In this document: positions 15,292 to 32,208 of the stretch, piece by piece
Layout of the letters: each line of letters starts with the position of its first letter
Numbering within the stretch: the stretch's first letter is position 1
Virus record (IMG/VR): IMGVR_UViG_3300009130_000084
Span: 1-34,190 of that record
DNA length: 34,190 bases
Direction: 5' to 3' (one strand)
Origin: a virus
The notes under the pieces: model-generated
The model's database searches: none
Seen by the model: only the letters and a program-made list of their open reading frames with translations
Told to the model about the DNA's origin: nothing
Program-made: the position numbers and the translations under genes

Positions 15292-17218
15292 GTCTGTCCT
15301 CTAGTTGTTGAATAAGTTTCTTTATTTCATATTGGGTTTCAAACAACATTTCTTCTTCTCGGTTTAATCCTTCTCCCATTCCCATGGTCCCTTGTCCTAA
15401 ACGAAGAATGGGGTCACCACCATTAAATAGGTTCCTGTTACCCCGAGAGCCCTTTTCGCCGGTGACCGCAGATTGAATACTCCGGTTTCGAGCGCCCGAA
15501 CGTCTGCCGTCAATACTCCGTTTGATATTTTTATTGGTCTTTTTGTCTGTCCTGAACCCAGGGGCATCGGGGGTGCCTCCGCCGCCGGCGGGTGGTTCAG
15601 CTAAAAGGGTGCCCGGCTCAGGATCCTCTAGTGGGGCTGCTTCCTCATCTGCGCCTGCATCCCCCAGGAGGTCCCCGGCGGCACCGCCGTCGTCGCCAAG
15701 ATCAAGTGCTCCCGCAGCAGCACCTTCTTGAGCGGCCGCTCCTTCAATATCAGCGGCGAACTTGGCATCGCCGTATTGATCAATTTGGATACGCTCAATT
15801 TCTTCTTTAGAGAGTTTAAATATGTTCTCGTACACCCAACGCTTCGAAAAGTAACCTTCGGTAGCCGCACCCGCAATCTCAAAACGAGTCCGTAGAAATT
15901 CTAATTCTTGAAGCTCGGCAATTTTTGAAGGGTTATTGAGGCTTAAAGTGAACGACAGGAGATCATTGTTGCGATATCCCAAAGTAAATAAGTGAATAAT
16001 ACACATTTTCTCCAGTTCCGCGATCACCACCCTCTGGAGTCTCTGGATGGTTCGGGCGAACCGAATATCCTTTTGAGCTAACGTAGTTTTATCTTCTTGG
16101 GCATCACTTTGGGCCAAGTATGCTTTGGGAACTTTTAAAGCCGAGAAAAGTTTATCACGCAGATATTCTACATCATCGATGTCCCCGGTGAATTGTCCAC
16201 CCGCCAGGGTTTCAATACGGGTATTGTTGGTTGCGCCGCGAACCGGAATATAAAAATCCTCATCAACACTCATAGCATTGTAGCGCAAGTCCACCCGTCC
16301 CGAATCTTGATCCACAATCTGATTCCGCTTCATCTGGGTCTTTACTTGTTCAATGTATTGCTCTACATCTTCGGGGGCAATATTACCAACATCAATATAA
16401 AAAACGCGGCGCTCAGGAGATCTGACGATTCGATAAGCCATCATTGCATCTTCGAGAAGAACTAATTGACGCCATATGCGGCGGGCAGGTTCAAGTACTG
16501 AACTTCCATACGGAACATATTTATCATGACCTACCACTCTAAAGTGACACACCTGCCAGTTCTCAAACGTTACTCCCTTATTTCCTTCAGCCTGCTGCCA
16601 ATAAAACTGTACATAATTGGGATTAGTGGGGTCAGTGCCCTCAATTCTTTCCATCTCTCGCACCGGGAGGGGAACCACGTTCGTAATACCAAGCTTATCA
16701 TCGATGTCCATGTAGAGATAATAATCTCCGAATTTGCACATACTGCGAGCCCAGCCAAAAAGATTAGCCTCCGAGTTTAGAACTTTAAACAAGAGAGTAT
16801 TTATAATATCTTTGATTTCACGATTAGGGCAGTTTACTTGAATGATAGGATTAAAGATGGTCGAGGTCGTTATTTCGTCACCATAGATATCCAGAGCCGA
16901 CGCAATCTCCGGCATGTATTCCATTTGTTCAAAGTCGGTATAACGAAGTTGCTTGTTGCGCATCCCCAGGACAGCGTTAGTCTGATCTCCAAAGGGATTA
17001 TAATATTCCTTTTTCTTAAACTCTTTGCCGGTACTACTGGTGAAGGTGTATTTACCCACGTCGCGGCGTGTCCCCCGGATGACAGCGGGTCGATCATAGT
17101 TTACGATAGGACCACTAAAGAGGCGAGTTAACCTCTTGAAGAGTCCCGAGTCCTTGTTCCGGGGATTATTTTTTGAGGCACTTTGTTGAAGTGAACTTTT
17201 GTTATTATTATTTGCCAT
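15275..17218 (-). CDS. gp20: Portal vertex protein, gp20-like
   Basis: A 647-aa portal protein (T4 gp20: 524 aa). Family landmarks are YTDFEQMEYMPEIASALDIY (about 93-112), DEITTSTIFNP, FRVVGHDKYVPYGSSVLEPA (about 226-245) with RRIWRQLVLLEDAMMAYRIV, SPERRVFYIDVGNIAPEDVE (about 267-286), and VEYLRDKLFSALKVPKAYLA (about 350-369). About residue 490 onward is an extension absent from T4: a Gly/Ala/Asp low-complexity linker (about 490-550), a basic stretch (about 556-600), then a final helix (EEMLFETQYEIKKLIQQLED). The dodecameric portal is the DNA entry channel and head-assembly initiator. It follows the terminase by 3 nt, behind AAGGAT. Confidence 0.93.
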   Translation of the reverse strand: MANNNNKSSLQQSASKNNPRNKDSGLFKRLTRLFSGPIVNYDRPAVIRGTRRDVGKYTFTSSTGKEFKKKEYYNPFGDQTNAVLGMRNKQLRYTDFEQMEYMPEIASALDIYGDEITTSTIFNPIIQVNCPNREIKDIINTLLFKVLNSEANLFGWARSMCKFGDYYLYMDIDDKLGITNVVPLPVREMERIEGTDPTNPNYVQFYWQQAEGNKGVTFENWQVCHFRVVGHDKYVPYGSSVLEPARRIWRQLVLLEDAMMAYRIVRSPERRVFYIDVGNIAPEDVEQYIEQVKTQMKRNQIVDQDSGRVDLRYNAMSVDEDFYIPVRGATNNTRIETLAGGQFTGDIDDVEYLRDKLFSALKVPKAYLAQSDAQEDKTTLAQKDIRFARTIQRLQRVVIAELEKMCIIHLFTLGYRNNDLLSFTLSLNNPSKIAELQELEFLRTRFEIAGAATEGYFSKRWVYENIFKLSKEEIERIQIDQYGDAKFAADIEGAAAQEGAAAGALDLGDDGGAAGDLLGDAGADEEAAPLEDPEPGTLLAEPPAGGGGTPDAPGFRTDKKTNKNIKRSIDGRRSGARNRSIQSAVTGEKGSRGNRNLFNGGDPILRLGQGTMGMGEGLNREEEMLFETQYEIKKLIQQLEDRHEDQT

Positions 17219-17221
17219 GGC

Positions 17222-18793
17222 TTATCCTTTAATTATCCACCCTAAGTCGTGTGATCGCCCATCAGTACCCTTAAAGGTTTGTTGTCCCTGTTTGTAGCCG
17301 TGCTGTCCTTCAATTTTAGTATTTAACACAGTGTTAGAAACTGATATGCTATTGAGTAAGGCTTTATTATAATTAATCTCCCGTTGATTTACTGTTAAAG
17401 CTGTTTCTCGTACCCAACACGCAATAGACGTCGCAATAACCAAATCATCGTTATAACTCCGCATCGCTTGTGGTCGCCCATTGTGCCACACAAACGTTTT
17501 AATTTCGTTCGCCAAGCGCAATGAGTTAATTGTAATTAGCTTATTCCTGACGAATTCCTCAAACTTCGCAATAACAAGTGGGCGAGTCTTCATCGACATG
17601 GTAAAGCCAGGTACTCCTCCTACTGCTTGGGCAGTAAGCTCATCAACATATTCGTGAGTTGATTTTACACTATAATACAGATTGTTATAGAGCATCTCTT
17701 GGAGTCTATTAAGGACACCAATCCCTAAAGAATTATTCTCAATGACCAAAAGCGCATCATTATATTCTGACGCGATGGAGTGCAAAAGGGGAGCAAACAT
17801 ATCGGGAGTTATTTTCCCTTGATATTCCGCCACTTGTTCCATACTTTGGTTTTCGAAAACCTGGGCGACACTATAGTCACTACCGTCACCTCGTGCAACA
17901 TCAGCCACCAAGAGATATTCTCGGCTCGGTTCAGGCTCTTTCCATATCCAATAATTCCGGTCAAACCCGGTACGTTGCCGTGGTTCGGTGGCTCCCTCTA
18001 ATACTCTATGGAGGTCGTCTCCATGAACCACTGTCTCGCCCGATGCATTAAAATTACATTCTAATTCTTGTGCAATTTCTCGTTTAGACATGTTGCGGGT
18101 TTCTTTATGAAACCACGCCTGGTCACGTTCAGGGTGTACGTGCCACGGCAACAGAAGGGTCTGAAAGTCGTTTTTATTCTCTTTGGCTTCGGTATAGGTC
18201 TTATGAAACCAATTACCAACGCCATTGGGGGTAGATAAAGCTATACAGCGGCCACCTGTCGAAAGCGTCGGGTAAAGACCAGCCCATAGTTCATCCATCC
18301 CCTCCACAAAGGCAGCTTCATCCACCACTAAGAGAGAAAGCGCCTCAGAACGCCCGGCGTCGCCGGTGGTAGAGGATGCTTTAACTTGCGACCCGTTAGA
18401 CAATTCAAACGACTGGCGATTGTCAATAGAAATTTCCGCAATTTTAAGCCAGGGCGGCAAATGCTTATGGATAGCTTTAATCTTTTTAACTAAATTAGTG
18501 GCGGTTCCCAGCTTGGTAGCTACGACCAACACATTCTTATCGCGATGAAAGAGCATCAGCCAACAAACATAAGCCGCCACCGTAGTGGAAATGCCTAACT
18601 GGCGCGCTTTTAAAATAACAGTAAAACGATGCTTATTAAATTCGTCTAACGCTTCTTTTTGAAAATCATACAGATCAAAAGGAATCAGTCCCCGCATCGG
18701 ATGGGAGATCTGCGCATATTGGTTACAGAAATAAGCCGGATCTTTGCCACAGCGGATAATCTCCGCCATTGTTTCCCGCTTGGTGGACGGCAT
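17222..18793 (-). CDS. gp17: Terminase large subunit, gp17-like ATPase/nuclease
   Basis: A 523-aa DNA packaging motor (T4 gp17: 610 aa). The adenine-binding region PFDLYDFQKEALDEF is followed by Walker A KARQLGIST (about 62-70), Walker B LLVVDEA (D158, E159) and coupling motif ALSTP (about 185-189). The RNase-H-like nuclease domain shows acidic residues at D298 (LLVADVARG), E352 (LLVIENNS) and D449/D450 (YNDDLVIA). All key residues are present, so an active enzyme is expected. It starts at a TAATG junction with the upstream gene, with GGAGG 6 nt before the ATG. T4's longer N-terminus is missing. Confidence 0.95.
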   Translation of the reverse strand: MPSTKRETMAEIIRCGKDPAYFCNQYAQISHPMRGLIPFDLYDFQKEALDEFNKHRFTVILKARQLGISTTVAAYVCWLMLFHRDKNVLVVATKLGTATNLVKKIKAIHKHLPPWLKIAEISIDNRQSFELSNGSQVKASSTTGDAGRSEALSLLVVDEAAFVEGMDELWAGLYPTLSTGGRCIALSTPNGVGNWFHKTYTEAKENKNDFQTLLLPWHVHPERDQAWFHKETRNMSKREIAQELECNFNASGETVVHGDDLHRVLEGATEPRQRTGFDRNYWIWKEPEPSREYLLVADVARGDGSDYSVAQVFENQSMEQVAEYQGKITPDMFAPLLHSIASEYNDALLVIENNSLGIGVLNRLQEMLYNNLYYSVKSTHEYVDELTAQAVGGVPGFTMSMKTRPLVIAKFEEFVRNKLITINSLRLANEIKTFVWHNGRPQAMRSYNDDLVIATSIACWVRETALTVNQREINYNKALLNSISVSNTVLNTKIEGQHGYKQGQQTFKGTDGRSHDLGWIIKG

Positions 18794-20145: not shown

Positions 20146-21279
20146 TTATTTAAGGAACTTCTTTAGTCCCTCAATACGCTTAGAGGGTCGCTTCAGTCCG
20201 CTGACCAACGTATAGGTGACGAGCTTATCCCTCTTATCATCTTCATAAATGCCGCGATGAATGATGGCACCGCCCGTCAAAGCGGCCAGCGTATCAAATC
20301 CAAATTCAATACTATCCATCAACCCTACAGTCTCTTCAAAGATTTCTTCGCCCCCGACTACAATACAGGCTGCGCCCGTCGCAGTGGTCAAATCAAAGCC
20401 CTCTGCCAGCAGAGTTTTCTCCAGATTTTTCTTAAGAGCATTAGAGATAGCTGTTTCACTCTCTACATCTTTGACGCTGGTAACACCCATAATCATGCAC
20501 CCAGACTGTCGCATAATGCTGTCGTAATCGGTAGCATCAAAGGTTGTGTATTCTGAATCCTGATTTGCCAGGACGTTAAAGACGTGGAACAAGCCCGCGA
20601 CTGTATTGTTGATGGTGGTCCAAAACTTCTTCACTGTCAGTTTAGGGTAAAGTTTTTTAATCTTCTCGTTGTCCACCATAATGAGGGGGGCAATCTTCCC
20701 TTTCTCTGCGAGCCCGCAAAGTTGGTTAATGCGATTGTGAGCATTCTTGGCTACCGTGGGGGAAGCCGACTCGCCAGCCGTTGGAAGGGAAGCTATGACG
20801 CCAACCCGCTGGTCCACATCTTCTACACCAATGTAAGTGAAGTACTTTTTGGCGACTTTTATCAGGGTATTAACTGTCCCTCCACCAGAACCACCCGAAA
20901 CCCCAAGGCAAATCATGATGCGATCAACGTTGGTCCCGAAAATTTCACGGAACTTGTTGAACACTTCTTGTTCTTTGCGTTCGATGGCTGCTTCGGCTTT
21001 GGCTTGGTCTTTGCCGGCACCCTGTTCACCATGTTCGTCCACTAAGAACTTTTGCTCGTCGGGAATATCCAATCCATTAAGATCTGAGCGAGCGGTATTC
21101 ACCGCCACCGTCTTGGTATAACCCATGTCGTAAAACGCCTTTGCCATACGACCGCCGCCTTGGCCAGCGCCAACTATAGCATAAGTGAGCGCGCCGCCAG
21201 ACTTATCCTCGACGGTTTCCTGCTCTTCATTTAAGTCGGGATCATAGTCCTCGATTTCAAGTGTAGGAATGTCTACCAT
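20146..21279 (-). CDS. FtsZ/tubulin-superfamily GTPase
   Basis: A 377-aa protein with the tubulin/FtsZ nucleotide-binding plan. After a 30-residue acidic N-terminus come AIVGAGQGGGRMAKAF (about 34-49), VAVNTARSDLNGL (about 58-70, like FtsZ 'VNTD.q.L'), the GTP signature LGVSGGSGGGTV (about 125-136), and a likely T7 loop FDATDYDSIM (about 247-256) with acidic residues D248, D251 and D253. Phage tubulins (PhuZ, TubZ) polymerise to move or position DNA or capsids; bacterial FtsZ drives division. Which applies is unknown. It is among late genes upstream of the terminase block, behind TAAGGAG. No long C-terminal FtsA/ZipA-binding tail is evident. Confidence 0.8.
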   Translation of the reverse strand: MVDIPTLEIEDYDPDLNEEQETVEDKSGGALTYAIVGAGQGGGRMAKAFYDMGYTKTVAVNTARSDLNGLDIPDEQKFLVDEHGEQGAGKDQAKAEAAIERKEQEVFNKFREIFGTNVDRIMICLGVSGGSGGGTVNTLIKVAKKYFTYIGVEDVDQRVGVIASLPTAGESASPTVAKNAHNRINQLCGLAEKGKIAPLIMVDNEKIKKLYPKLTVKKFWTTINNTVAGLFHVFNVLANQDSEYTTFDATDYDSIMRQSGCMIMGVTSVKDVESETAISNALKKNLEKTLLAEGFDLTTATGAACIVVGGEEIFEETVGLMDSIEFGFDTLAALTGGAIIHRGIYEDDKRDKLVTYTLVSGLKRPSKRIEGLKKFLK

Positions 21280-21839: not shown

Positions 21840-22289
21840 CTACCCCACGTCAACAGGGTCTTCAACCACCTCATCAGGGGGAACGACAGCCTCGGCTTCA
21901 GCCTGCGCGTCTTGAGCCTCTTGTGCCGCCGCGGCAGCAGCCGCAACAATGGTGCGTTTCAAAATACCGGCAAATTTCTTAGCTTGAGCGTCAGACAAAC
22001 CCATCTCCAGGGCAGCCTTTTCGGCACCTAAGCCTAAATTGGCGACGGTAGCCTGCTCGTCTTTAAATGCAATCAAATATTTAAGAAAAAGTCGTGAACC
22101 ATCCATGAACTCTTTGGGTCCCTGAAGTCTATTGACGGCAAGCCAGGCCGTTTTTCCATCCGCAGTTCCCGGCTCGAAAGGAACCACCCCTCTTTGACCG
22201 TCTTCCTTCAACAAACGGTGGATTACTTTCGGATTCTTCATTAACTCTTCTTTGAGGAGTTTGGTTAAATGACTTCGAGAAATCTTCAT
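21840..22289 (-). CDS. MKIS-type N-terminal peptide protein with Ala-rich helix
   Basis: A 149-aa protein starting MKISRSHLTKLLKEELMKNP, a member of the recurrent MKIS peptide family. R-L-L-K-E followed by D-G (about 25-31) resembles the L-K-E boundary of the MCP propeptide and the effector peptides. The body has a small folded region (DGKTAWLAVNRLQGPKEFMD; LFLKYLIAFKDEQATVANLG) and an Ala/Glu-rich helix (KRTIVAAAAAAAQEAQDAQA), ending in an acidic Pro/Val tail. No catalytic motif. GGGAGGG precedes the ATG, with an ACTATTTATA element 22 nt upstream. An internal virion protein is the working interpretation. Confidence 0.65.
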   Translation of the reverse strand: MKISRSHLTKLLKEELMKNPKVIHRLLKEDGQRGVVPFEPGTADGKTAWLAVNRLQGPKEFMDGSRLFLKYLIAFKDEQATVANLGLGAEKAALEMGLSDAQAKKFAGILKRTIVAAAAAAAQEAQDAQAEAEAVVPPDEVVEDPVDVG

Positions 22290-22912: not shown

Positions 22913-23251
22913 TTATTTGTCTCCGAAATTTATCCTAATGTAGTCGATTACGTTTAGGGCCTGCTCTACACTAAGAAGGTTCTTCCACGGTGGCATCCGC
23001 CCTTTACCTTCAAAAATACTTTGGAGCAATGTACCATCGGGTTGAGCGAGGATAGACTTATCATTCACAAAGTCCGCCCCTAACCCGCCAAGTCCAGTCC
23101 CGTCATAACCATGGCACGACGTACAGTACATTATATAGGTTCGTTCGCCGGGATGCCGTGCGGCATCGTGTTTGGTTACTTCTGTTATTCCCGCATCAGA
23201 CGGGGTGGACTGGGAGCATCCGATTAGGGCGACAAGTATTATCTTTTTCAT
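22913..23251 (-). CDS. c-type cytochrome, predicted lipoprotein
   Basis: A 112-aa protein, taking the ATG at 23251 that has AGGA about 7 nt upstream (the frame also extends to 23284). The N-terminus MKKIILVALIGCSQSTPSDA has a lipobox (LIGC, Cys12), so it should be lipidated and placed in the periplasm. The mature domain has the haem c attachment motif CTSCH (C43, C46, H47), and GRMPPW (M86) supplies the usual axial Met; it ends in the helix LNVIDYIRINF seen in small class I cytochromes. Maturation would need the host cytochrome c assembly system. It could shuttle electrons during infection; the target is unknown. A bacterial origin is likely. Confidence 0.85.
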   Translation of the reverse strand: MKKIILVALIGCSQSTPSDAGITEVTKHDAARHPGERTYIMYCTSCHGYDGTGLGGLGADFVNDKSILAQPDGTLLQSIFEGKGRMPPWKNLLSVEQALNVIDYIRINFGDK

Positions 23252-23267
23252 TTTACTTCCTAGGGGG

Positions 23268-23492
23268 TTATATCTCACATTCACACTCTTTTATTTTGTT
23301 CCGACGATTTCTGACTCTACACAAAGGGCACCGAATATAATGTGAATCACTTTCATAAAACATAGCCCAAAGTCTGGGAACCCTCAACGCTATTCTCCAC
23401 GGTCCAATAAACCACAGGATACAACACCGAGGTATATTAGAATGTCGTCCGCACTCCCAGTGGTATTTTATTTTATTGAGATACGAAAGCAT
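23268..23492 (-). CDS. Small Cys-rich putative zinc protein
   Basis: A 74-aa protein (ATG at 23492; in-frame ATGs at 23498 and 23516 are alternatives). It contains YHWECGRHSNIPRCCILWFI (about 11-30), then YIRCPLCR (about 55-62) and a final CEC. The 'CGR.S.IP.CCI.WF' pattern is, from memory, typical of a small uncharacterised phage/bacterial family with an apparent membrane-seeking Trp-rich segment and a CxxC zinc site. It overlaps the end of the SbcCD-like gene by 20 nt and precedes the cytochrome gene. The Cys and His could bind zinc. Function unknown. Confidence 0.55.
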   Translation of the reverse strand: MLSYLNKIKYHWECGRHSNIPRCCILWFIGPWRIALRVPRLWAMFYESDSHYIRCPLCRVRNRRNKIKECECEI

Positions 23493-26400
23493 ACCCATCT
23501 TGACGCTCAATGTCAATGGTCATATCGGCAATATCTTTGAGACTATCCAAGTGAGTAATCAAAAGCACAGTCTTGTAGTAGCCCTTAATCATTTCCATCA
23601 CTCGCATAAAGCCTTCAAGGTTTTCGGCGTCCAATGCTGTGCCTGGCTCATCCATAATCATAATGTCAGATTTTGGTAGGGTTGAGACGTTGGTTAGGGC
23701 GATGCGGATGGCGATGGCTGCAAGCGTTTTCTCTGCGCCGGAAGCCATCTCTAAAGGTCGTGCTTCGTACTTGGGGTGCTTGATGAAAATATCTAATTTG
23801 TTTTTTTCTGCCTCGAAAAACACCTCAAAGTCGGTGACGTTGGAAAGTACCGTGCTGATTTCCTCGTTGATGAGGGGGAGCATCCGCTTGACCACATCAT
23901 AGCTGATTCCGTTGGGGTGGCAACAACGCATAAATAAGTCGTAGGCCGCATACTCGGTTCGCAGGTCTTCAAGTTCCTGCTTCTTGTCTTCAATATTGGC
24001 AATCTGGGTTTCAATCCCGCCGTGTTGTTTTACAAGGTCGAGCACCTTGGCTTCGCAGATAGCAATGTCGCTCTCCATTTTGAGGGCTTTTTCCTTCAAG
24101 TCGTCCTGCTCTGTGATAAGTCCCTCTCGGTTCTCAATCGCTTCCTTGTTGAGTTCATAGACTTCAATCTTGGTTTTGATGCTTGCCATCTCGTTGGTGA
24201 GAAGATGGAGTTTGTTTTTGGTTTGCGCTAGAAGTAAGTCAAGGTTGGTTGCCTCGGTACAGAGGTCCGCGTATTCCTTATCTCTGTCTTTATAAAGTTG
24301 GTTAGCTGCCTCCAGTGCACTTACATCCAGCCCCTCAAGAGTGGTGAATAATTGAGAGCGGCGGCGTCGCCACACCATCAAAGTCCGGCGCACGTCCGCA
24401 AGAAGTTCCTTAGCCTCGTAAGCGTCCTTAATATATTTACGCAATCCGCAATCAGGACCACAAGGCACCTCTTCCAAGACAGCCAATTTCTTCTCATAGG
24501 TCTCTTTATTACGTTCTTCAAGGACTATTTGACTTTCTAAGGTAGAAAGCTCGTTCTGTATTTCTTCGCAGTGAGTAAGCTTCGTGCGAAGGGAGGTCAC
24601 ATCAGTATCCTCCAGAAGCTTCTTTAAGGTTGCCGCCTGAGATAGTACATCTTTCTTTTGGTTTTTGGTTTGGGCTTCCTTCAAATTAAGGGAGGAGTAT
24701 TCTTGTTTCGCTTTCTCCAAGCGACGAGACTCTTTGGTGATATTGATAATTTCAACTGGGGCTGAAGCAAACTGATCTTCGATCTCTTTAATCCGAAGAT
24801 TAATAGAAGACAAGTCGTTAGTGAAAGTGGTGCACTTCTTTTCTTGCTTCTTTCGCGCCTTATCATTATCGGACAGTTCTTGATGAAGTTGCGTAATATC
24901 TTCCTCAAAAGTATTTCCCTCTAATTTTCTTAACAGGGCACGAGTCTCTATACTGTCATTCTTGGAGGCTCGGAATTTCTTCTCAAACTGGTCAAGGTCT
25001 AAAAATTTGGCGAGGATTTCTTTACGCTTAGTTGAGCCCTCGTTGATAAAAGTCATCGCACCCATTTGACTGGACATGCTCGTCAACAAGAAATCCTCAA
25101 TACTCCCAAAAACTTTACGGATGGCTTTGTCTGTGCCGTTCCGGTCCAGCGAATTCATGCTGGTCTCTTCTTCTGTCGCTGGGTCGTAAATTGTAAATTC
25201 TACATCGGTCTTGGCTTCAAGGGTTTCTTCCCCATGAAGTTTCTTGGTGTATTTCTCTGAGTTCCGTTCGATGATGTAGGTCTTGCCGGCAATCTCGATC
25301 TCGGCTCGTCCGCAACCGGACGGCTTATTCTGGTTGATAATGTTCAGATTCTTACGATTGTTTTTGCTAATTGAATTATATACCGTATAAAGCATACTGT
25401 CAACAACAGAACTCTTGCCTGAGTAGTTCTTTCCGAAGACGCCGACGACGCCATTCAACTTATCAAAATTGATCGTGTTGCCCTCACCGTAATTGAAGAG
25501 GTTGTCCCACTCCAACTTTTTCAAGGACCACTCTACATTGCGGAGTCCAGCATCTTCGCCGTTTACGGTGGAGTCATACTTAGAATTAAGTTGAAATACT
25601 TTTTCTAATGTCTTATCGTCGGGTTCATACTCTTTTAAGTATTCCCGAATTAATCGCTCTTGAACTGCGGGGTCTCGTAGGTTCTCTGTGTTGCCGAGGT
25701 CGTCTACGTTTACGCTGTCTCGTTTTAGTCCCGCTTTATTGACGAATGAAAGGCTTTCAGGCTTGAACCGGCTCTTGGCTATATCCATCACTCGGCGGAT
25801 TTTATCAAGGGAAACCTTGTGATGAGTTACCACACGAAGCCGGGCCCCTTCTGGAATGTTTACTTTGCGAGGGAGATTTCCCTTCTCCGTCATCTCAATC
25901 GTCATAAAGGGCTTGACGTTTTTCACAAGGTGGTGCTCCACCGTGAAGTGAGTCTTGCTTTTAATATCCCAAATCAAGAAGCCCTTGTCGTTTGTTTCGC
26001 CGTGGTTTTGCTGAATGGTAGATCCGCAATAGCGAATCGTTCCGCTCTCGTTTAGGACTTGATTAGTCTTGTGAATGTCGCCGAGCATCGCATAATCAAA
26101 CTTATCAAACACCTTAATGTCGTGGTCGCCGTAGTCCATCACCCACCCAAGGTCGGTTTGACTATTATTAATTGCTCCGTGATAAAGAGCGATGTTGATA
26201 GCCTCTGTGTCTGTCGGGTCTGTCCAATTGGTCTCATCAAAGATTGACAAAACGTTTAGAGTCAGGTCATCTTCTAACTGGACCTCTCCTGAATACTTGT
26301 GTAGGATTAGGCTTGGGTGGTTGAGTGCTTCCACAATCGGAGTGATGGCATCTTGCCGACTACTGTTGCGTAGGTTACCGTCGTGATTGCCCAGGATGAT

Positions 26401-26625
26401 GTGAGTCTCGGCGATGTCAGCCAAGTTCTTTAGGAACTCAGTGGCTAATTCAAAATACTCTGGCGAGAGTTGTGTTTTTGTGTGAGCCAAATCGCCAGTG
26501 TGGACGATATAGTCTACCTTCTGTGCCCGCAGGGTCTTATAAATCTCCTCAAATGCTTTTCTATATTCATAGTGATATTTCAGATTTTTGATATGGGTAT
26601 CCCCGAAATGTGCAATCCGCACCAT
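23473..26625 (-). CDS. Fused Mre11/SbcD nuclease - Rad50/SbcC ATPase (gp47-gp46 fusion)
   Basis: A 1050-aa polypeptide joining two normally separate proteins. Residues 1-220 carry metallophosphoesterase motifs: GDTH (8-11), GDLAHT (44-49), GNHDG (79-83), H149 (YHG) and GDIHKT (182-187). Residues 366-1045 are an SMC-type ATPase: Walker A GKNYSGKS (398-405), coiled coils (about 545-715 and 735-895), ABC signature ASGAEKT (961-967), Walker B DIMIMDE (987-993), D-loop ALDA and H-loop H1025. T4 gp47 and gp46 resect DNA ends for recombination-dependent replication. The hook region is CGPDC (722-726), so three rather than the usual two residues separate the Cys. AAGGAG lies 8 nt before the ATG. Confidence 0.93.
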   Translation of the reverse strand: MVRIAHFGDTHIKNLKYHYEYRKAFEEIYKTLRAQKVDYIVHTGDLAHTKTQLSPEYFELATEFLKNLADIAETHIILGNHDGNLRNSSRQDAITPIVEALNHPSLILHKYSGEVQLEDDLTLNVLSIFDETNWTDPTDTEAINIALYHGAINNSQTDLGWVMDYGDHDIKVFDKFDYAMLGDIHKTNQVLNESGTIRYCGSTIQQNHGETNDKGFLIWDIKSKTHFTVEHHLVKNVKPFMTIEMTEKGNLPRKVNIPEGARLRVVTHHKVSLDKIRRVMDIAKSRFKPESLSFVNKAGLKRDSVNVDDLGNTENLRDPAVQERLIREYLKEYEPDDKTLEKVFQLNSKYDSTVNGEDAGLRNVEWSLKKLEWDNLFNYGEGNTINFDKLNGVVGVFGKNYSGKSSVVDSMLYTVYNSISKNNRKNLNIINQNKPSGCGRAEIEIAGKTYIIERNSEKYTKKLHGEETLEAKTDVEFTIYDPATEEETSMNSLDRNGTDKAIRKVFGSIEDFLLTSMSSQMGAMTFINEGSTKRKEILAKFLDLDQFEKKFRASKNDSIETRALLRKLEGNTFEEDITQLHQELSDNDKARKKQEKKCTTFTNDLSSINLRIKEIEDQFASAPVEIINITKESRRLEKAKQEYSSLNLKEAQTKNQKKDVLSQAATLKKLLEDTDVTSLRTKLTHCEEIQNELSTLESQIVLEERNKETYEKKLAVLEEVPCGPDCGLRKYIKDAYEAKELLADVRRTLMVWRRRRSQLFTTLEGLDVSALEAANQLYKDRDKEYADLCTEATNLDLLLAQTKNKLHLLTNEMASIKTKIEVYELNKEAIENREGLITEQDDLKEKALKMESDIAICEAKVLDLVKQHGGIETQIANIEDKKQELEDLRTEYAAYDLFMRCCHPNGISYDVVKRMLPLINEEISTVLSNVTDFEVFFEAEKNKLDIFIKHPKYEARPLEMASGAEKTLAAIAIRIALTNVSTLPKSDIMIMDEPGTALDAENLEGFMRVMEMIKGYYKTVLLITHLDSLKDIADMTIDIERQDGYAFVSQ

Positions 26626-26679: not shown

Positions 26680-27000
26680 TTAGTCCTTGTAATCGTCTAG
26701 GAAGCCAGGGGCAGCTAGCATTGCATACTCATATCCACCACGGATAAAATCCGGATGCTCTTTGGCTTTTTCTTTGGCCTCTTCTCTACTTGATGCCATC
26801 ACATGAACTCTAGTGCTCTCGATTGTATTTCGCCCGACATCTTTACCAATCTTAACTTCATACTCTTCTTTGGGTTTCTTTGACCCATAACTTGAGCCCC
26901 GTACATTAGAAGAAGGATGTCCTCCCGAAGTGTAGCCGGCGAATATCTCGTTAAGCTCTTCTTTGATTATCTTTCGTAGTTGAGACTTGGTGATTTTCAT
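26680..27000 (-). CDS. MKIS-type N-terminal peptide protein, function unknown
   Basis: A 106-aa protein starting MKITKSQLRKIIKEELNEIF, the clearest form of the recurrent MKIS peptide; E-E-L-N-E lies at about 14-18. A Gly/Ser-rich linker (GYTSGGHPSSNVRGSSYGSK) follows, then a small mixed alpha/beta domain (EYEVKIGKDVGRNTIESTRV; SSREEAKEKAKEHP) and a final segment RGGYEYAMLAAPGFLDDYKD. It overlaps the preceding gene by 4 nt (ATGA), with AGGAGAGGG upstream. Peptide, linker, domain is what an exported or packaged cargo protein would look like. Confidence 0.65.
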   Translation of the reverse strand: MKITKSQLRKIIKEELNEIFAGYTSGGHPSSNVRGSSYGSKKPKEEYEVKIGKDVGRNTIESTRVHVMASSREEAKEKAKEHPDFIRGGYEYAMLAAPGFLDDYKD

Positions 27001-27932
27001 GAGCTTAAACCCTCTCCTATATGTGTAAGTGCCGGACTTGCAATTAACCGCTGAAGGATTTCTTCTACAATATTATCAGAGCGGTTGCCCGGTCTGTTTT
27101 GTTTTCTGCTTGCGCTCGCCATCTGACGCTTGGCTTTGCGTTTCTTTTCTGCGCCGGCGGCAGGGCGTCTGGCTGGACGTTTCGATGCGCGTTCTTTAGC
27201 TTGAGCAGCTAAGCGCGCCTGTCTGTTGGGTCCAGGTTTTACCGAAGCCAATACTTTATCCCCTTCGTTTTTGAGTATTTCAACTTGTTGGGTGCGGTAA
27301 GCACGGGCTTCGGGAGATTTGGAAGTAGACTTTTGGAAGAAGTCGTATATAGCCATTAGATCTGCCGATTTTCCACTCCCAGCAAATTGAGTATCACCCC
27401 CTTCCGCACTTCCAGCGTGGGCTTTAATTTTGGCATGAGCCCATTTTTCGAGGGCTTTTTTGAGATTGCCTGCGCGGCCCCGAGGGTCTTGAGTTATTTT
27501 TCCGGCACGGTCAACATAATACCTGAGTTGTTCAGGATTGCCCAGTACTTCTAAGTTGCTATCCAACGCACTCACTATTCCTAAATAAACCAAAGCAGCT
27601 TCGCGATTATTATTGGGGAGATCCGCAACGTAATTGGCGGCAATCTTTTTGGCTAAGCGTTGTGCCTCGGCGTCATCTTTTGGAGGAAAACCAGCAGTCG
27701 GTGCCTGGTTAAGCGCATCATAATCAATTATAAAAGATGCCAACTCTTCGCGGGCTTCCGCTGCTTCGCCAGATTTGGCACCTTTATTTTGTTGAGCCAG
27801 TTGACGAAGACGGGCAGCTTCCTCTTTCCCAAAACACTGTTCGGGTGTATAACAGGGGACGTTTCGCTCGTTTAAAGTTTGCGTGATCGAGACCTGAATT
27901 AGTTCACGAAGGTGAGATTTCGTGAGTTTCAT
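26997..27932 (-). CDS. MKIS-type protein with basic, DNA-binding-like C-terminal region
   Basis: A 311-aa protein starting MKLTKSHLRELIQVSITQTL, a diverged MKIS peptide; L-N-E at about 20-22 could be a processing site. The middle (about 45-200) is helical and polar. Residues about 235-290 are extremely basic and Ala-rich (for example KRPARRPAAGAEKKRKAKRQ), resembling a histone H1-like tail. A basic internal protein that helps compact or neutralise packaged DNA is inferred. The protein ends in a predicted helix (IVEEILQRLIASPALTHIGE). C27 and C33 lie within a few residues of each other. It abuts the next gene upstream (2 nt). Confidence 0.6.
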   Translation of the reverse strand: MKLTKSHLRELIQVSITQTLNERNVPCYTPEQCFGKEEAARLRQLAQQNKGAKSGEAAEAREELASFIIDYDALNQAPTAGFPPKDDAEAQRLAKKIAANYVADLPNNNREAALVYLGIVSALDSNLEVLGNPEQLRYYVDRAGKITQDPRGRAGNLKKALEKWAHAKIKAHAGSAEGGDTQFAGSGKSADLMAIYDFFQKSTSKSPEARAYRTQQVEILKNEGDKVLASVKPGPNRQARLAAQAKERASKRPARRPAAGAEKKRKAKRQMASASRKQNRPGNRSDNIVEEILQRLIASPALTHIGEGLSS

Positions 27933-27934
27933 GG

Positions 27935-28267
27935 CTAGTCTTTGCCTGGTTTTGCCGATGCCTCTGTGGTTTCGATGCTGGGATATTTCGATTTCACGTG
28001 CCTTTGAACCGTCTTAACTAAACTGGAGAGGCTTCCCTCATACCACTTCGGAACGGATGAATACTGACTGGCACGTGCGAGAGCGTTGCGTGCTTGAGAC
28101 TCGCTATTGATTGGGAAATGATCCTTATCATCTTTTACTTTGGAGCTTTCAGCGGAAAATACTACATCACCGCGGTTGCGTACCTTAGCGTCCGGATCCT
28201 TCTTTTCCGAAAGGCGAGAAACCTCTTCTTGAACGAGTTGGCGTAGATAGGAGCGGTTGAGTTTCAT
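27935..28267 (-). CDS. MKIS-type N-terminal peptide protein with DUF6582-like domain
   Basis: A 110-aa protein starting MKLNRSYLRQLVQEEVSRLS; R-L-S-E precedes KKD (about 18-24). The domain contains SSKVKDDKDHFPINSESQAR (about 41-60), NALARASQYSSVPKWYEGSL and a last helix (LVKTVQRHVKSKYP). From memory, this 'kvKdgkDHFPi.te.qArnALaRv.qy...P.Wy.GsL..l...V...V..kyP' layout matches a small uncharacterised family (DUF6582-like) often inside larger phage proteins. Here it stands alone behind the peptide. Basic at the C-terminus; no catalytic role known. Confidence 0.65.
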   Translation of the reverse strand: MKLNRSYLRQLVQEEVSRLSEKKDPDAKVRNRGDVVFSAESSKVKDDKDHFPINSESQARNALARASQYSSVPKWYEGSLSSLVKTVQRHVKSKYPSIETTEASAKPGKD

Positions 28268-28276
28268 AGTATTGCC

Positions 28277-28489
28277 CTAGTCTTCGTCACGATCTTCGTG
28301 CCGGTCTTCGGCGCGGTCATGCTGATGCTTTAAGTAATCGATATGGCGATTCATCTCTCGGCGAATATCTTCAAGATGATCAACATCCATGTCATCATGC
28401 CTTTCCTCGTCATGAAAAGTGTCCTCTTTCATGACTTTGGTCAGTTCCTCGCGAATAACTTGTAATAGTTTAGATTTAGAGATTTTCAT
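28277..28489 (-). CDS. Small MKIS-type protein with charged His/Asp-rich body
   Basis: A 70-aa protein, taking the ATG at 28489. A longer frame to 28738 exists but runs through the upstream gene and would bury the MKIS peptide. The start MKISKSKLLQVIREELTKVM is almost identical to the next gene's peptide, at DNA level too; V-M-K-E is followed by D. The body is extremely polar (FHDEERHDDMDVDHLEDIRR; HIDYLKHQHDRAEDRHEDRD), one charged helix with about ten His, which could bind metal. It may act as a packaged peptide or spacer. GGTGG lies shortly upstream. Confidence 0.6.
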   Translation of the reverse strand: MKISKSKLLQVIREELTKVMKEDTFHDEERHDDMDVDHLEDIRREMNRHIDYLKHQHDRAEDRHEDRDED

Positions 28490-28493
28490 ATTA

Positions 28494-28913
28494 TTACCAC
28501 CCGTAGCCGCCTTGTCCACGAGCTTTCCTTGCGTACCACTCCCTATCGCCGGCTTTCTGTTGAGAGATTCTTTTACTCCCAATAGCTGTGCCGCCGCCGG
28601 GGATGCGGCTGTCCCTCGAACTCGTTGGGTTGCTCCATCGTGCAGGTCCGGATGATCCGTATCCTCTAGGATTGACGCCACTTGTAGAGTCGCCCAGTCG
28701 AGCAGCCTCTTCATCCGTATCCGGACGTTCGCCTTCAAGTTCGTCGTGACCGGCTTCCTTCAGAAGCTTATTAAGAGCACGGCGGTTTTGGCGAGCATAG
28801 CGCCAGAGCGAATCGATGTTCTTGTCTTCGCGTTCATCGGCTGACTCCTCCGCAAGAACAGCGGTAAGTTCTTCTTTGATGACCTGAATCAGTTTAGATT
28901 TAGAGATTTTCAT
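28494..28913 (-). CDS. MKIS-type N-terminal peptide protein, disordered Gly/Arg-rich body
   Basis: A 139-aa protein starting MKISKSKLIQVIKEELTAVL; V-L-A-E precedes ESADE (about 19-27), a possible processing boundary. A helical region (SLWRYARQNRRALNKLLKEA) is followed by a Gly/Ser/Arg/Pro-rich, disordered part (GVNPRGYGSSGPARWSNPTS) and a C-terminal KARGQGGYGW. The Arg/Gly/Tyr composition resembles nucleic-acid-binding low-complexity tails. It has a strong GGAGGG site and an ACTATTTATA element 23 nt upstream, so it may head a transcript covering the MKIS genes. Confidence 0.6.
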   Translation of the reverse strand: MKISKSKLIQVIKEELTAVLAEESADEREDKNIDSLWRYARQNRRALNKLLKEAGHDELEGERPDTDEEAARLGDSTSGVNPRGYGSSGPARWSNPTSSRDSRIPGGGTAIGSKRISQQKAGDREWYARKARGQGGYGW

Positions 28914-28947: not shown

Positions 28948-29751
28948 TTAAATCCCCGCAAGTCTCAAAACATCTGATGTTATTGCTAAAACGAAGATTC
29001 CGAGCACCATAACGGCACCAATAATATTTAGTACGTTGCGAGTCTTTACAGCCAATTTTTTCCGTCTTATTCCTTCGACTACAGAAATGCCGATATGTCC
29101 ACCATCTAATACTGGGATTGGTAGTAAGTTAATTACACCGAGATTGATGGAGAAAAAGGCAATCCAATCTATTAAGAATCCCCAGTCTCCTGTGTCTGCG
29201 CTGCGTTTTCTTGCTTGTTCCGTAAATTCATAAACGGCTACAGGTCCGCCCACTTCTTTAATAGACATAGGCTCTTTGCGAGGCATTGTTGCGGCTTCCC
29301 AAATGCTGCTATACATCTTCACCGATATTTTATGAGAGTAGCCAGCCGCTTCCATTACGCCGATGCGGTGGGGGATAGCTCCCTCTGGCACATAAACATC
29401 AGGGTATGGCTGCCCGACCAAGAGCATAAAATATAATGGCCACGGCAACAACAAATTAAACACCGGACCCATCACCGCTATGAAGGCTCGCTTCCATGCC
29501 GACACCGACCAAAAAGATTCGGGGTCATTTTTCTTGTTGTGATAATCATCTTCGCCACGAGGTTTGATGTAGCCGCCAAGAGGTATGAGCGACAAACGCC
29601 ACTCAGTTCCCCATAGTTTCTTCTTAAGGAGGACTTTCCCGAACCCTATTGAAAAACTATCAACGGCGACGCCCATTGCTCGGGCTGCGACATAATGTCC
29701 CAGTTCATGAACAAAAATTACTAAAACAATTATTCCAAGAAAGGTAAGCAT
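28948..29751 (-). CDS. M50 / site-2-type intramembrane metalloprotease
   Basis: A 267-aa membrane protease; the ATG at 29751 has GGAGG about 8 nt upstream (a TTG at 29769 is possible). The zinc motif HELGH (H15, E16, H19) lies in the first TM helix and the third ligand motif NLLPIPVLDGG (N208-G218, D216) in a later one; AVMGPVFNLLLPWPLYFMLL is another TM. E. coli RseP (about 450 aa) has two PDZ domains; here only about 40 residues (YPDVYVPEGAIPHRIGVM) lie in that place. Cellular S2P enzymes cut membrane-bound anti-sigma factors or signal-peptide remnants. A role in altering the host envelope stress response or maturing phage membrane proteins is inference. Confidence 0.88.
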   Translation of the reverse strand: MLTFLGIIVLVIFVHELGHYVAARAMGVAVDSFSIGFGKVLLKKKLWGTEWRLSLIPLGGYIKPRGEDDYHNKKNDPESFWSVSAWKRAFIAVMGPVFNLLLPWPLYFMLLVGQPYPDVYVPEGAIPHRIGVMEAAGYSHKISVKMYSSIWEAATMPRKEPMSIKEVGGPVAVYEFTEQARKRSADTGDWGFLIDWIAFFSINLGVINLLPIPVLDGGHIGISVVEGIRRKKLAVKTRNVLNIIGAVMVLGIFVLAITSDVLRLAGI

Positions 29752-30236
29752 AGGTTGCCCTCCTGACAAACGTTTGTGGATTGTGGCATGTGGTGTGGGA
29801 GTTGGTAATCCCTGAATAATATATTAGGACCCTTGGACCAGGCATCGTCTTCTTCGAATATTTTACACCTTTCGGCGGCTCTTCTTTGGGCGTCCATCGG
29901 AGTCCAGAGTTGCAGGTAGTTGTGTATCTTTTTATTTTCTTCCCGCAGTTTTTGCATCTCCGTGCTCTGGGCTTTAATGGTAGTCTCTAGGCTGTAGATT
30001 GCTTGACTGGCAGCCTTTTCCAGCCGTTCCTCTATATGGCTCTCATTCACGACATACAAAAGGAGACCCATAAAAATAGTACAAACAACAGCCGCCACGA
30101 CCGAAGTCCAAACGACTGCTGAAAGATAGTTAGTCTTAATCTTGGTAGCAGGCGGAGTGCTATAGTCCTGCGTGTATTGGACAGAGTTCCGTGCGTTTTC
30201 TCTGATTCTGTGGAATGCGTCCCTTTCTCGGCTCAT
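29730..30236 (-). CDS. Single-TM coiled-coil membrane protein
   Basis: A 168-aa protein with a cytosolic basic N-terminus of about 40 residues, one TM helix (VVWTSVVAAVVCTIFMGLLL, about 41-60), a coiled coil (EERLEKAASQAIYSLETTIK; AQSTEMQKLREENKKIHNYL) and a C-terminal region with three Cys (about 123, 157, 162) that would be periplasmic and could form a disulfide. The topology is spanin-like, but the globular Cys-containing end is unusual for spanins. The gene overlaps the protease start by 22 nt, so the two are probably coupled and could be substrate or partner. There is no visible SD; an ACTATTTACT box sits 2 nt before the ATG. Confidence 0.6.
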   Translation of the reverse strand: MSRERDAFHRIRENARNSVQYTQDYSTPPATKIKTNYLSAVVWTSVVAAVVCTIFMGLLLYVVNESHIEERLEKAASQAIYSLETTIKAQSTEMQKLREENKKIHNYLQLWTPMDAQRRAAERCKIFEEDDAWSKGPNILFRDYQLPHHMPQSTNVCQEGNLCLPFLE

Positions 30237-30270: not shown

Positions 30271-30591
30271 TCATCGCCTTATAAACCTCAAATCACCATC
30301 AGTATTGGCTATCTGGCTTGGTTTGGCTTCAAAGTCTTCACCAACATAGCGATATTCCCCTGGGTTGTCTGCCTCTTGTATATCGTCTTCATCTACAAAC
30401 GCATAAACTACATAGAAGTCCTCGTCATTATAGATTGCCGAAGTAACAGCGTGTTCGCCAGCAAACCTGCGGGACAAAGTTACATAATCATTATTCCTAA
30501 TAACTTTTGTGAAAGCAGGTTGTGCTCGGAAGATTTTTACCTTCTTCCCTTCTTTCAAAAACTTCCGCCACTCTGTTAGTAGTTTTTTCAT
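30271..30591 (-). CDS. Signal-cassette protein with small ART-like domain
   Basis: A 106-aa protein: residues 1-14 are the cassette peptide MKKLLTEWRKFLKE, followed by GKK. The rest (about 18-100) reads VKIFRAQPAFTKVIRNNDYV, TLSRRFAGEHAVTSAIYNDE and later NPGEYRYVG. An Arg in an early strand (R22), a 'DYVTLSrrFAgeHA' segment and a late Glu (E79) resemble small ADP-ribosyltransferase-like folds (the 'R-S-E' plan), though I cannot confirm an active site. T4 packages ADP-ribosyltransferase Alt in its head, which makes the idea attractive. If processed after L-K-E14, a domain of about 92 residues would be delivered. Confidence 0.6.
   Translation of the reverse strand: MKKLLTEWRKFLKEGKKVKIFRAQPAFTKVIRNNDYVTLSRRFAGEHAVTSAIYNDEDFYVVYAFVDEDDIQEADNPGEYRYVGEDFEAKPSQIANTDGDLRFIRR
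30551..30591 (-). repeat. Signal-cassette DNA repeat, copy 1
   Basis: A 41-nt segment ending at the ATG and encoding MKKLLTEWRKFLKE minus its last base. Used as the reference copy, it matches copies 2-5 at 38, 40, 38 and 33 of 41 positions, counted by eye. It lies at the start of a gene whose downstream part is unrelated to the other carriers. Confidence 0.85.
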
Positions 30592-31016
30592 TGTTCCATC
30601 ACCATGGTGATCACCATTATTGGGTTTCCGCCACTATCTTTGCCGACAACCTCAAAGCCATATCCTTCATACCAATCTACTAGACTGAAACCTTCTGCTT
30701 GGCTTTGTCCCAAGTCGGCTATGAGTATTGTAGTGTAAGCACCCGCATCAGCGGCTTGGCTCATAAAGTCTTCAACCAATTGGTTCCCAACACCTTGTCC
30801 TCTGTTTTCTTCGGGGACAAAAGCATTTTTCATTATAGCAACAGGTAGTTCAAGGTTTTGTATCACCTCTTCACTAACACCTTCTTTGTTCGCCCAGTTC
30901 ATTAGCCGGTCGATATTGCTATGAATAACACCACCGATAGTAGCACCTTCTATATCAATTGATATTTCTTGGGCTTCTTTCAAAAACTTCCGCCACTCTG
31001 TTAGTAGTTGCTTCAC
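30588..31016 (-). CDS. Signal-cassette protein with GNAT acetyltransferase domain
   Basis: A 142-aa protein starting with GTG (31016): cassette peptide MKQLLTEWRKFLKE, then AQE. The rest is a compact GNAT domain: LPVAIMKNAFVPEENRGQGV (about 57-76) with the acetyl-CoA loop R-G-Q-G-V-G (72-77), helix NQLVEDFMSQAADAG, and WYEGYGFEVVG (115-125), the usual 'fYek.GFe..g' end. GNAT enzymes acetylate amines on proteins or small molecules; some toxins acetylate aminoacyl-tRNA. The target here is unknown. It overlaps the ART-like gene by 4 nt. L-K-E followed by A fits the T4 prohead protease consensus exactly. Confidence 0.8.
   Translation of the reverse strand: MKQLLTEWRKFLKEAQEISIDIEGATIGGVIHSNIDRLMNWANKEGVSEEVIQNLELPVAIMKNAFVPEENRGQGVGNQLVEDFMSQAADAGAYTTILIADLGQSQAEGFSLVDWYEGYGFEVVGKDSGGNPIMVITMVMEQ
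30976..31016 (-). repeat. Signal-cassette DNA repeat, copy 2
   Basis: Identical to copy 1 at 38 of 41 positions, including third codon positions across the centre. The differences are at the 5' end, where ATG is replaced by GTG. Confidence 0.85.
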
Positions 31017-31412
31017 CTAATAAACCTCTGTGTATTTGTCCGCAAATGGTTCGGTATCAAATTGTTCTGCCGCTGCGTCAAATATAATTTCTGAACCATT
31101 ATCATTAATAACGATCCAGTCGTGGACGACGCCATCGCCGCCATCATCGAACAAACCATCTCTTACATCTCGGGCATCAAACCCAGCGTCGGATAAGGCT
31201 TTTAGCCAGAAGTCAGTATTCGCATCGCAGGAATCAAGCGGACGACCTATGTCGCACAAATACTGCTGTGATTGTTCATAGTTATCCGCTATTGCTTTGG
31301 CTAACTTAGGCGATGGGTTTTGAGATAGCCATATGGATTTCATCCACTTAGGTTGCCCGTCACCCTCTTTCAAATACTTCCGCCACTCTGTTAGTAGTTT
31401 TTTCATTTTCAT
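31017..31412 (-). CDS. Signal-cassette protein with possible transglutaminase/papain-like fold
   Basis: A 131-aa protein beginning MKMKKLLTEWRKYLKE, then GDG (ATG at 31412; the ATG at 31406 gives the standard cassette start). The domain has CDANTDFWLKALSDAGFDAR (C62 onward), VHDWIVIND (H97) and EIIFDAAAEQFD (D112). A Cys before a helix, then His-x-Trp and 'fDa.a.QF', is the order of Cys-His-Asp triads in transglutaminase-like and related cysteine peptidase folds. C53 is a second Cys that could be catalytic or structural. The assignment is by pattern only. It abuts the GNAT gene without a gap and overlaps the upstream gene by 4 nt. Confidence 0.6.
   Translation of the reverse strand: MKMKKLLTEWRKYLKEGDGQPKWMKSIWLSQNPSPKLAKAIADNYEQSQQYLCDIGRPLDSCDANTDFWLKALSDAGFDARDVRDGLFDDGGDGVVHDWIVINDNGSEIIFDAAAEQFDTEPFADKYTEVY
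31366..31406 (-). repeat. Signal-cassette DNA repeat, copy 3
   Basis: Matches copy 1 at 40 of 41 positions; the single change converts the Phe of RKFLKE to Tyr. The gene's first ATG lies 6 nt further upstream. Confidence 0.85.
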
Positions 31413-31867
31413 CTAACAGAATCCTGGGGGTTACCTGTTAAATTTGCTAAAGATATATGAAAAATTCTTTCAGGTTCAGGGTCTGTGTTTTTCTCACCGA
31501 GGAGTTCCATAACCTGCCGCACGTAGTCTCGCATCTCATCTTGGTTTTCTAACTCAACAGCCCAAGACATTTTTCCTTCATCCGTTTTTACCTGAATTTC
31601 TTTATCGAAGTCAATGATCGGCTCAGGGGCGTCAGGAAGTTCCATCTTTTTTATTTGTTTCCGATGAGGTTTTAAGATACTTTGATGAACCAGAGTTACG
31701 TGTAAAGCCTTTTCAGGTAAACTTATTGCATTGGGATCCCCTATTTCCTCCTGTAGTCCCTGAATCTGCTGAACCAAGTCCGGATTTAGCTTTACTTTAA
31801 GAATGCCGCTGTATTTAGCTTCGGCTTCCTTCAAAAAGTTTCGCCACTCTGTTAGTAGTTTTTTCAT
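31409..31867 (-). CDS. Signal-cassette protein with 2H phosphoesterase domain
   Basis: A 152-aa protein: cassette peptide MKKLLTEWRNFLKE, then AEAKYSG. The body has two H-x-T/S motifs about 80 residues apart, LHVTLVH (H56, T58) and RIFHISLANLTG (H137, S139), the hallmark of 2H phosphoesterases (LigT, CPDase, AKAP7). Members cleave 2',3'-cyclic phosphates or cyclic oligonucleotides. The T4 anti-CBASS nuclease Acb1 belongs to this superfamily and destroys cyclic-nucleotide alarm signals. A packaged enzyme of this kind could act at once after injection. Substrate unknown. L-K-E followed by A fits the protease consensus. Confidence 0.75.
   Translation of the reverse strand: MKKLLTEWRNFLKEAEAKYSGILKVKLNPDLVQQIQGLQEEIGDPNAISLPEKALHVTLVHQSILKPHRKQIKKMELPDAPEPIIDFDKEIQVKTDEGKMSWAVELENQDEMRDYVRQVMELLGEKNTDPEPERIFHISLANLTGNPQDSVR
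31827..31867 (-). repeat. Signal-cassette DNA repeat, copy 4
   Basis: Matches copy 1 at 38 of 41 positions. The first 25 coding bases from the ATG are identical to copies 1 and 3. The gene starts in a TAATG junction with the preceding stop. Confidence 0.85.
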
Positions 31868-32208
31868 TAGCTGACCTTTTCAAGTCCGCCCAAGTATCTC
31901 ACTTTTTTGACGCCTGGCACTGTTTTGATTTTATGGAGAAGTTTCTTTGCTCCTGACTTCGGGCTTTCCAGTTTTTCGGGGATAAACTTGATTATTATTT
32001 CCGAAAAATAATCTGAGTCGTTTTCTTCCGCTGTGTCTGGTTCTTGCTTGAGTGTGACTATTTCCGCAATAGCTCGAATCTCTGAGAAGGTCTGGCTCTT
32101 GTCACCGCCAACATCCTTGGAGATAACCAACGATGCACGGAACTCGTGCATTCTTTCGTCATAATCTTCTTTCAGAAACTTTCGCCATTCGTTGATTAGC
32201 TTTTTCAT
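31867..32208 (-). CDS. Signal-cassette protein with ferredoxin-like unknown domain
   Basis: A 113-aa protein: diverged cassette peptide MKKLINEWRKFLKE, then DYDERMHE. The domain reads FRASLVISKDVGGDKSQTFS, EIRAIAEIVTLKQ, an acidic loop, EIIIKFIPEKLESPKSGAKK and a final helix/strand (LLHKIKTVPGVKKVRYLGG). The strand-helix-strand pattern with 'i..ipGVk.V.yl' suggests a ferredoxin-like fold; from memory it is a common unassigned family in aquatic phages. P1' after L-K-E is Asp, less favourable than Ala/Gly in T4. No catalytic residues evident. It overlaps the NUDIX/ART gene by 4 nt. Confidence 0.65.
   Translation of the reverse strand: MKKLINEWRKFLKEDYDERMHEFRASLVISKDVGGDKSQTFSEIRAIAEIVTLKQEPDTAEENDSDYFSEIIIKFIPEKLESPKSGAKKLLHKIKTVPGVKKVRYLGGLEKVS
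32168..32208 (-). repeat. Signal-cassette DNA repeat, copy 5 (diverged)
   Basis: Matches copy 1 at about 33 of 41 positions while keeping EWRKFLKE, so it is the oldest or most drifted copy. Both synonymous and conservative changes are present. Confidence 0.75.

Follow-up and report, generated by a model that had tools for sequence, protein, structure and literature searches.

Eight genes with a common N-terminal peptide

The window analyzed here, a 34,190 bp stretch from an IMG/VR virus record, contains eight genes whose proteins begin with the common N-terminal peptide MK(I/L)(T/S)KSxLxxIIKEEL, referred to below as the tag. This tag, which a family of marine T4-like phages has on many small and otherwise unrelated proteins, is probably (we would put it at about 0.8) a cleavable capsid-targeting propeptide, acting like the capsid targeting sequence (CTS) of phage T4. 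An earlier note on this DNA had described related N-terminal peptides on eight genes, five of them adjacent and three elsewhere, and all eight starts are present on the minus strand, where nearly all genes of the window lie. The fuller consensus in the window is MK(I/L)(S/T/N)(K/R)SxLxx(I/V/L)IxEE(L/V), and the genes starting at 27932, 13535 and 11648 have degenerate copies of it.

The five adjacent genes occupy 28494-28913 (139 amino acids, tag MKISKSKLIQVIKEELTAVLAE at about 28848-28913, with LAE at residue 22), 28277-28489 (70 amino acids, tag MKISKSKLLQVIREELTKVMKE, with an acidic His/Asp-rich body), 27935-28267 (110 amino acids, tag MKLNRSYLRQLVQEEVSRLSE), 26997-27932 (311 amino acids, degenerate tag MKLTKSHLRELIQVSITQTLNE, with a basic body of net charge +15) and 26680-27000 (106 amino acids, tag MKITKSQLRKIIKEELNE, which has the highest tag score of the window, 41 bits). 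For the second of these genes the internal ATG at 28489 is taken as the start, and not the start of the longer open reading frame (ORF) at 28738, because the tag begins there. The three genes elsewhere are 21840-22289 (149 amino acids, tag MKISRSHLTKLLKEELMKNPKVIHRLLKE), 13269-13535 (88 amino acids, tag MKINKEYIRNIIREVIVSE), which is located directly upstream of the gene of a gp21-type prohead protease, at the place of gp68 in the T4 gene order, and 11256-11648 (130 amino acids, GTG start, tag-like N-terminus MKKSELKNIIKECVKEVIFEE), downstream of the protease gene. A hydrophobic-x-E site, noted earlier for most of the eight, follows the peptide in all of them, ending at residues 18, 22, 21, 22, 22, 29, 19 and 20.

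The eight genes were at first treated as one kind, which holds for seven of them, being cargo-like; the gene at 11256-11648 differs, being a conserved gene that is referred to here as the resident gene. For the bodies of the other seven, the fetched loci offer no homologue outside a single near-identical genome, which has the sole homologue of the 13269-13535 body; the body of 28494-28913 has none among the approximately 25,000 ORFs of these loci, and the bodies of 26680-27000, 26997-27932, 27935-28267 and 21840-22289 are likewise orphans. Nothing convincing is found for the window bodies in Pfam, PHROG or NCBIfam, and the DUF6582-like body that had been proposed could not be confirmed, as 27935-28267 has no Pfam or NCBIfam match.

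The tag as a modular peptide

Over the 955 predicted genes of eight contigs, the distribution of tag scores is sharply bimodal, with the tagged genes scoring from about 9 bits upward (those of the window at least about 15 bits) and all others at most 5 bits. In a DNA pattern scan, the motif directly after a start codon occurs in at least 120 stretches of IMG/VR viral contigs, whereas 257 Gb of bacterial and archaeal genome sequence contain only eight; those of their contigs that have several motif copies resemble phage contigs that were binned into metagenome-assembled genomes. Because the pattern demanded motif positions 1-6 and 11-15, their conservation among the collected sequences is in part a product of the search itself; positions 7-10, the positions from 16 onward, the loci fetched by means of gp21 and the genome-wide score distribution are free of this bias. 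In a profile search, every one of the 29 motif contigs of 50 kb or longer has 2 to 27 tagged genes, while the 20 control contigs, chosen with a random 15-mer of no relation to the tag, have none. The loci fetched by gp21 alone, with the motif unused, contain 18 tag matches, all of them on the gp21 strand. The array of tagged genes is 0-10 kb upstream of the gp17 gene in five of six contigs.

When the 314 distinct tagged proteins are clustered by body, 228 clusters result, of which 192 have a single member; the similarity of the proteins collapses after about residue 22. Bodies that are shared do exist (one cluster of 19 and several of two to four), and among 118 bodies that were scanned the recognizable ones are few and diverse, including GNAT, pentapeptide-repeat, leucine-rich repeat (LRR), DnaJ, EF-hand and FliG_C domains. 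One and the same short N-terminal peptide is therefore found on several proteins with unrelated mature parts, as for a T4-type CTS. Another locus (L349, G026:C1:9-15099) has an eight-gene tagged array in which the tag of several proteins is followed by a common acidic stretch, DEYDDYD...EEELTPAQK, a repeated putative cargo.

The ratio of nonsynonymous to synonymous differences (pN/pS) is 0.12-0.45 in the tag codons and 0.85-1.18 further on in these genes, at codons 25-38, and the synonymous sites of the tag are saturated (pS 0.53-0.84), which shows that it is the peptide, and not the DNA, that is conserved. Tags also occur internally in fused ORFs: the protein G014|19 of contig G014 has two internal tags, one of which lacks a methionine, and in contig G001 its third module is encoded as a gene of its own.

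Probable protease site, head genes and virion homologues

The prohead-protease consensus [LI]xE is present at the end of the peptide, as in a T4-type CTS. Within residues 16-32 it is found in 150 of 233 non-redundant proteins, compared with 67.5±6.2 in composition shuffles, and its glutamate is concentrated at residues 21 and 22. The ratio of Glu to Asp is 110:4 at this site, compared with 161:225 after L/I-x in the bodies (p = 1e-29). T4 gp21 cuts after glutamate, and an aspartate at position 10 of IPIII stops the processing but not the targeting (PMC9026906, PMC5694885); the bias for Glu over Asp at the tag site is in agreement with this IPIII finding (PMC9026906).

The window encodes a T4-like head and tail module, in which the tail genes come after the gp23-like gene. 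All of the following genes are on the minus strand: the gp17-like terminase gene (17222-18793), the gp20-like portal gene (15275-17218), the gene of the gp21-type prohead protease (Peptidase_S77, 12680-13276; PF03420, E 1.4e-31), which is the proposed processing enzyme, the gene of the gp22-like scaffold (9374-10417, located between gp21 and gp23 and aligned with a set of 28 sequences), which is the proposed docking partner, and the gp23-like major capsid gene (7628-9349). The names gp17, gp20, gp22 and gp23 are from the gene order and from homologues found in the same order elsewhere. The head genes that go with a T4-type CTS, gp21 together with gp22 and gp23, are therefore encoded in the window itself. 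The gp23 N-termini of the clade keep QLLKE-TSTM, with LLKE located at the place of the FLTE cleavage site of T4 gp23; in the window this is LKE at residues 56-58 of the gp23-like protein (9176-9184, minus strand, placed by alignment). This gp23 sequence suggests an LxE specificity in the lineage.

Of the 29 tag contigs with a length of 50 kb or more, 24 have Peptidase_S77, compared with six of 20 random contigs (p = 3e-4). The profile matches are thus not mainly in genomes that lack gp21, an outcome which the earlier note had named as speaking against its reading. In the five tag contigs that lack gp21, a search for gp23, run without a positive control, likewise had no match; they are probably fragments from which the head module is missing.

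The resident gene has 46 distinct homologues, most of them at a distance of 17-2100 nt on the downstream side of gp21. Its protein begins with MKKSELKNIIKECVKEVIFEEG, a variant form of the tag that reaches a tag score of 16.2 bits in three contigs, whereas untagged genes reach at most about 5 bits. It is present in 21 of 24 contigs that have both tag and gp21 and in none of six gp21-containing controls without tags; among the three exceptions, contig G021 ends just after gp21. The gene was not found in T4, RM378, Mel-JY01, Melnitz, S-T4 or S-CREM2. The gene at 11256-11648 is a core head gene and not an accessory one, and we read its product as a putative resident core protein that bears the address label of the cargo.

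The bodies of two tagged proteins of contig G001 match a virion protein. The protein G001|214 carries the CYHKVKARYDVWPSAYASGALVKCRK domain, which occurs in 366 phage records, nearly all of cyanophages, and gp160 of cyanophage S-CREM2 (128342-129235, with checked coordinates) is 95% identical to it over 40 residues. The same gp160 also matches the tagged protein G001|230 (47% over 45 residues, E 1.7e-8). The gp160 ORF has been detected in the virion with seven unique peptides (PMC10665884, Table 3). Bodies that are tagged in one lineage therefore belong to a virion protein in another. In the cyanophage proteins IxE-G directly precedes the CYHK domain.

Several other genes of the window were also noted. 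Between the resident gene and gp22 there is a ribosomal protein S21-like gene (10928-11224; PF01165, 3.7e-5, just under the cut-off), which has homologues at the corresponding position of other contigs; in Microcystis phage Mel-JY01 a gene annotated as RpsU is close by. Immediately upstream of the array of tagged genes comes the gene of a membrane M50 (site-2) metalloprotease (28948-29769; PF02163, 1.2e-57). The T4-like structural region also includes a tubulin/FtsZ-family protein with a TubZ-like C-terminal domain (20146-21279; PF00091, 2.3e-9; PF22453, 3.2e-8). A phage-encoded cytochrome c, similar to cbb3 subunit III, is found at 22913-23284 (PF13442, 9.9e-12), and the single ORF of 1050 amino acids at 23473-26625, in which a metallophosphatase domain is combined with one of an SMC-type ATPase, is probably a fused gp46/gp47 (SbcCD-like) protein.

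Proposed function of the tag and alternative explanations

It is most likely, by analogy, that the tag is functionally like the T4 CTS. The tag would be an amphipathic N-terminal helix of about 16 residues that binds the prohead core (the scaffold gp22 and/or partners) and carries the attached protein into the assembling head. The gp21-type protease would then remove the tag after [LI]xE at residue 18-22, and the freed body, packaged along with the DNA, would probably be ejected into the host. The proposal that a targeting peptide is attached to unrelated bodies has good support from the diversity of the bodies, the selection on the peptide, the LxE site, the co-occurrence with gp21, the tag-like peptide of the resident gene and the homology of the cargo to a virion protein. 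The accompanying idea of a separate virion compartment is not supported. This idea concerned a second class of peptide, the tag described here, next to a class-1 peptide; both classes end in LxE, both are found in the same contigs (the window, G001 and G014), and the class-2 peptide is also found beside gp21. The class-1 peptide, MKKLLTEWRKFLKE, begins five adjacent genes of the window (30271-32208), one of which has a GNAT body; it ends in LKE, like the N-terminal region of gp23, and resembles gp23 LLGKWEQTGLLEG (the LLxKW...LLEG region).

The T4 CTS is, like the tag, a short N-terminal peptide on unrelated, variable and often small proteins, ending in an LxE or IxE site for gp21, in a genome that encodes gp21, gp22 and gp23. 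In T4 it is present on IPI, IPII, IPIII and Alt, and the protease removes it (Mullaney and Black 1996, reviewed in PMC9026906 and PMC5694885). It differs in length, being 10-20 residues in T4 and about 16+6 here, and a contig can have the tag on as many as about 27 genes, among them a conserved one beside gp21. Sequence similarity to the MKTYQEFIAE-like peptides of T4 is not seen: the tag profile A1, at E values up to 1, matches nothing in the T4 genome, and at the sensitivity used the two peptides are not sequence relatives. The S-CREM2 gp160 protein, which belongs to the group T4-GC 119 (PMC10665884, PMC3037559), shares two cargo domains with the tagged proteins, and in other cyanophages its gene adjoins gp16/gp17; it differs in having the domains fused in one protein without the MKITKSxLxxIIKEEL tag. 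The N-terminal packaging signal of P1 DarB (PMC9024508), when compared by its description, also loads a protein into the head, and its first 30 residues suffice for a reporter, but it belongs to another head system without a separate scaffold and is known for a single large protein, without an array of peptides. The head propeptides of phiKZ and SPN3US (PMC5694885) are cut after glutamate by the prohead protease, and the first 15 residues of gp53 and gp54 are identical; these propeptides, however, are mostly longer than 100 residues, with AxE or SxE sites, and occur on few proteins. In the open-licence PMC literature no paper was found on capsid targeting with metagenomes and, with cyanophages, only the T4 head review PMC9026906.

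Searches with the bare peptide (tblastn) against cultured phages are too insensitive, and whole records were searched with the profile instead. The closest cultured carrier is Flavobacterium phage immuto, with four weak tag matches only. This phage also has further recurrent-looking N-terminal peptides that end in xE, for example MKKQILSEQFRRMQKLAGIITE and MENFDLKKFLVENKLTTNSKILKE, near its head genes (L305:4250-5641 and 11698-11997), which are possibly other tag classes.

Several points weigh against a CTS-like function. The tag peptide is absent from T4 and RM378 in the profile search and from the S-CREM2 protein, and because T4, RM378 and the typical cyanophages are without it, the function is assigned by analogy. 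No virion proteome was found for any phage with clear tag copies, and the cleavage is predicted from the T4 precedent. The contigs are fragments and the tag-bearing phages form one broad clade, so that the co-occurrence tests are not phylogenetically independent. The huge phage LR756508 has 16 tag matches and no detectable resident gene. The spacing [LI]..E is also mildly enriched (89 versus 64), and the LxE signal may in part reflect an amphipathic helix that continues.

How the tag would dock is addressed by a resemblance to the scaffold. The clade gp22 motif E(I/V)x(I/L)(D/N)ExxLV(D/N)(M/L)FKE(M/L)L aligns in register with the tag; in the window it is INEAELVNIFKEMM (gp22 residues 157-170; 9908-9949, minus strand), in register with ITKSQLKQIIKEEL, which is suggestive only. 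In most of the clade's scaffolds no window scores better than this motif with the position-specific scoring matrix of the tag, and windows like it are top-scoring in the scaffolds of immuto and Mel-JY01. The similarity is modest, with single-scaffold p values of 0.003-0.6 within the clade, which is a further point against the tag being a core-binding peptide. The AlphaFold2 model of gp22 (28 sequences; predicted local distance difference score (pLDDT) 65, predicted template modeling score (pTM) 0.30) is of low confidence, with an isolated helix at 159-170, and that of the resident protein (42 sequences; pLDDT 65, pTM 0.21) has helices and no usable fold; both models are too poor to reveal a docking site or a receptor. 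Tentatively, and with more doubt than confidence, the tag could be a molecular mimic of the N-terminal helix of the resident core protein, matching the helix motif of gp22, such that up to about 27 interchangeable cargos would use one docking site and the class-1 peptide MKKLLTEWRKFLKE another.

Among the alternatives, the tag might be a general assembly or oligomerization helix, which recruits proteins to the neck, the tail, the baseplate or an assembly factor and is not processed by a protease. The sequence is indeed amphipathic and helix-like, and the tagged genes extend beyond the head module, but the preference for Glu over Asp at a fixed LxE, the association with gp21 and the peptide on the gp21-adjacent gene all point to the prohead, making this explanation unlikely. 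Less likely still, the tagged genes would be fast-diverging paralogues of one ancestral family that is best conserved at the N-terminus, as the tandem arrays and the shared bodies could suggest. Against this, the recognizable bodies have unrelated folds (GNAT, LRR, pentapeptide, DnaJ, EF-hand) and most bodies have no detectable similarity, the likeness stops abruptly after LxE, and the same cargo domain is tagged in one lineage and untagged in cyanophages; a paralogous family with decaying bodies is ruled out for most members by this diversity. It is very improbable that the tag is a signal that acts in the infected or new host cell, by binding a membrane, the nucleoid or a host protein, and not in virion assembly: the recognizable bodies do resemble small soluble effectors, but the LxE site, the linkage to gp21 and the peptide on the gp21-adjacent resident gene are then left unexplained. 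Finally, a DNA- or RNA-level element at the gene starts (a promoter, a translation enhancer or a recombination seed) is hardly credible, being largely refuted by synonymous sites that are saturated while the amino acids are kept, and by tags located inside fused ORFs, one of them lacking a start codon. In its favour are the 23 identical nucleotides that begin the neighbouring genes starting at 28489 and 28913; the near-identity in DNA once described for these two is limited to this stretch, the identity being 77% when the whole 48-nt tag is compared and 62% when 90 nt are.

The sea is rich in T4-like phages, most of whose genes are orphans; the proteins that T4 delivers from its capsid include anti-restriction and host-modifying ones. 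A tag for loading the head probably allows the capsid-carried, injected proteins of such phages to be listed from sequence alone, by which hundreds of unrelated 'hypothetical proteins' would become a testable set of injected cargo. It would also provide new tags for loading phage heads, and it bears on the identity of the partner to which a capsid targeting sequence binds. If the mimicry of the resident protein were true, these phages would possess a general-purpose injection system with two addresses.

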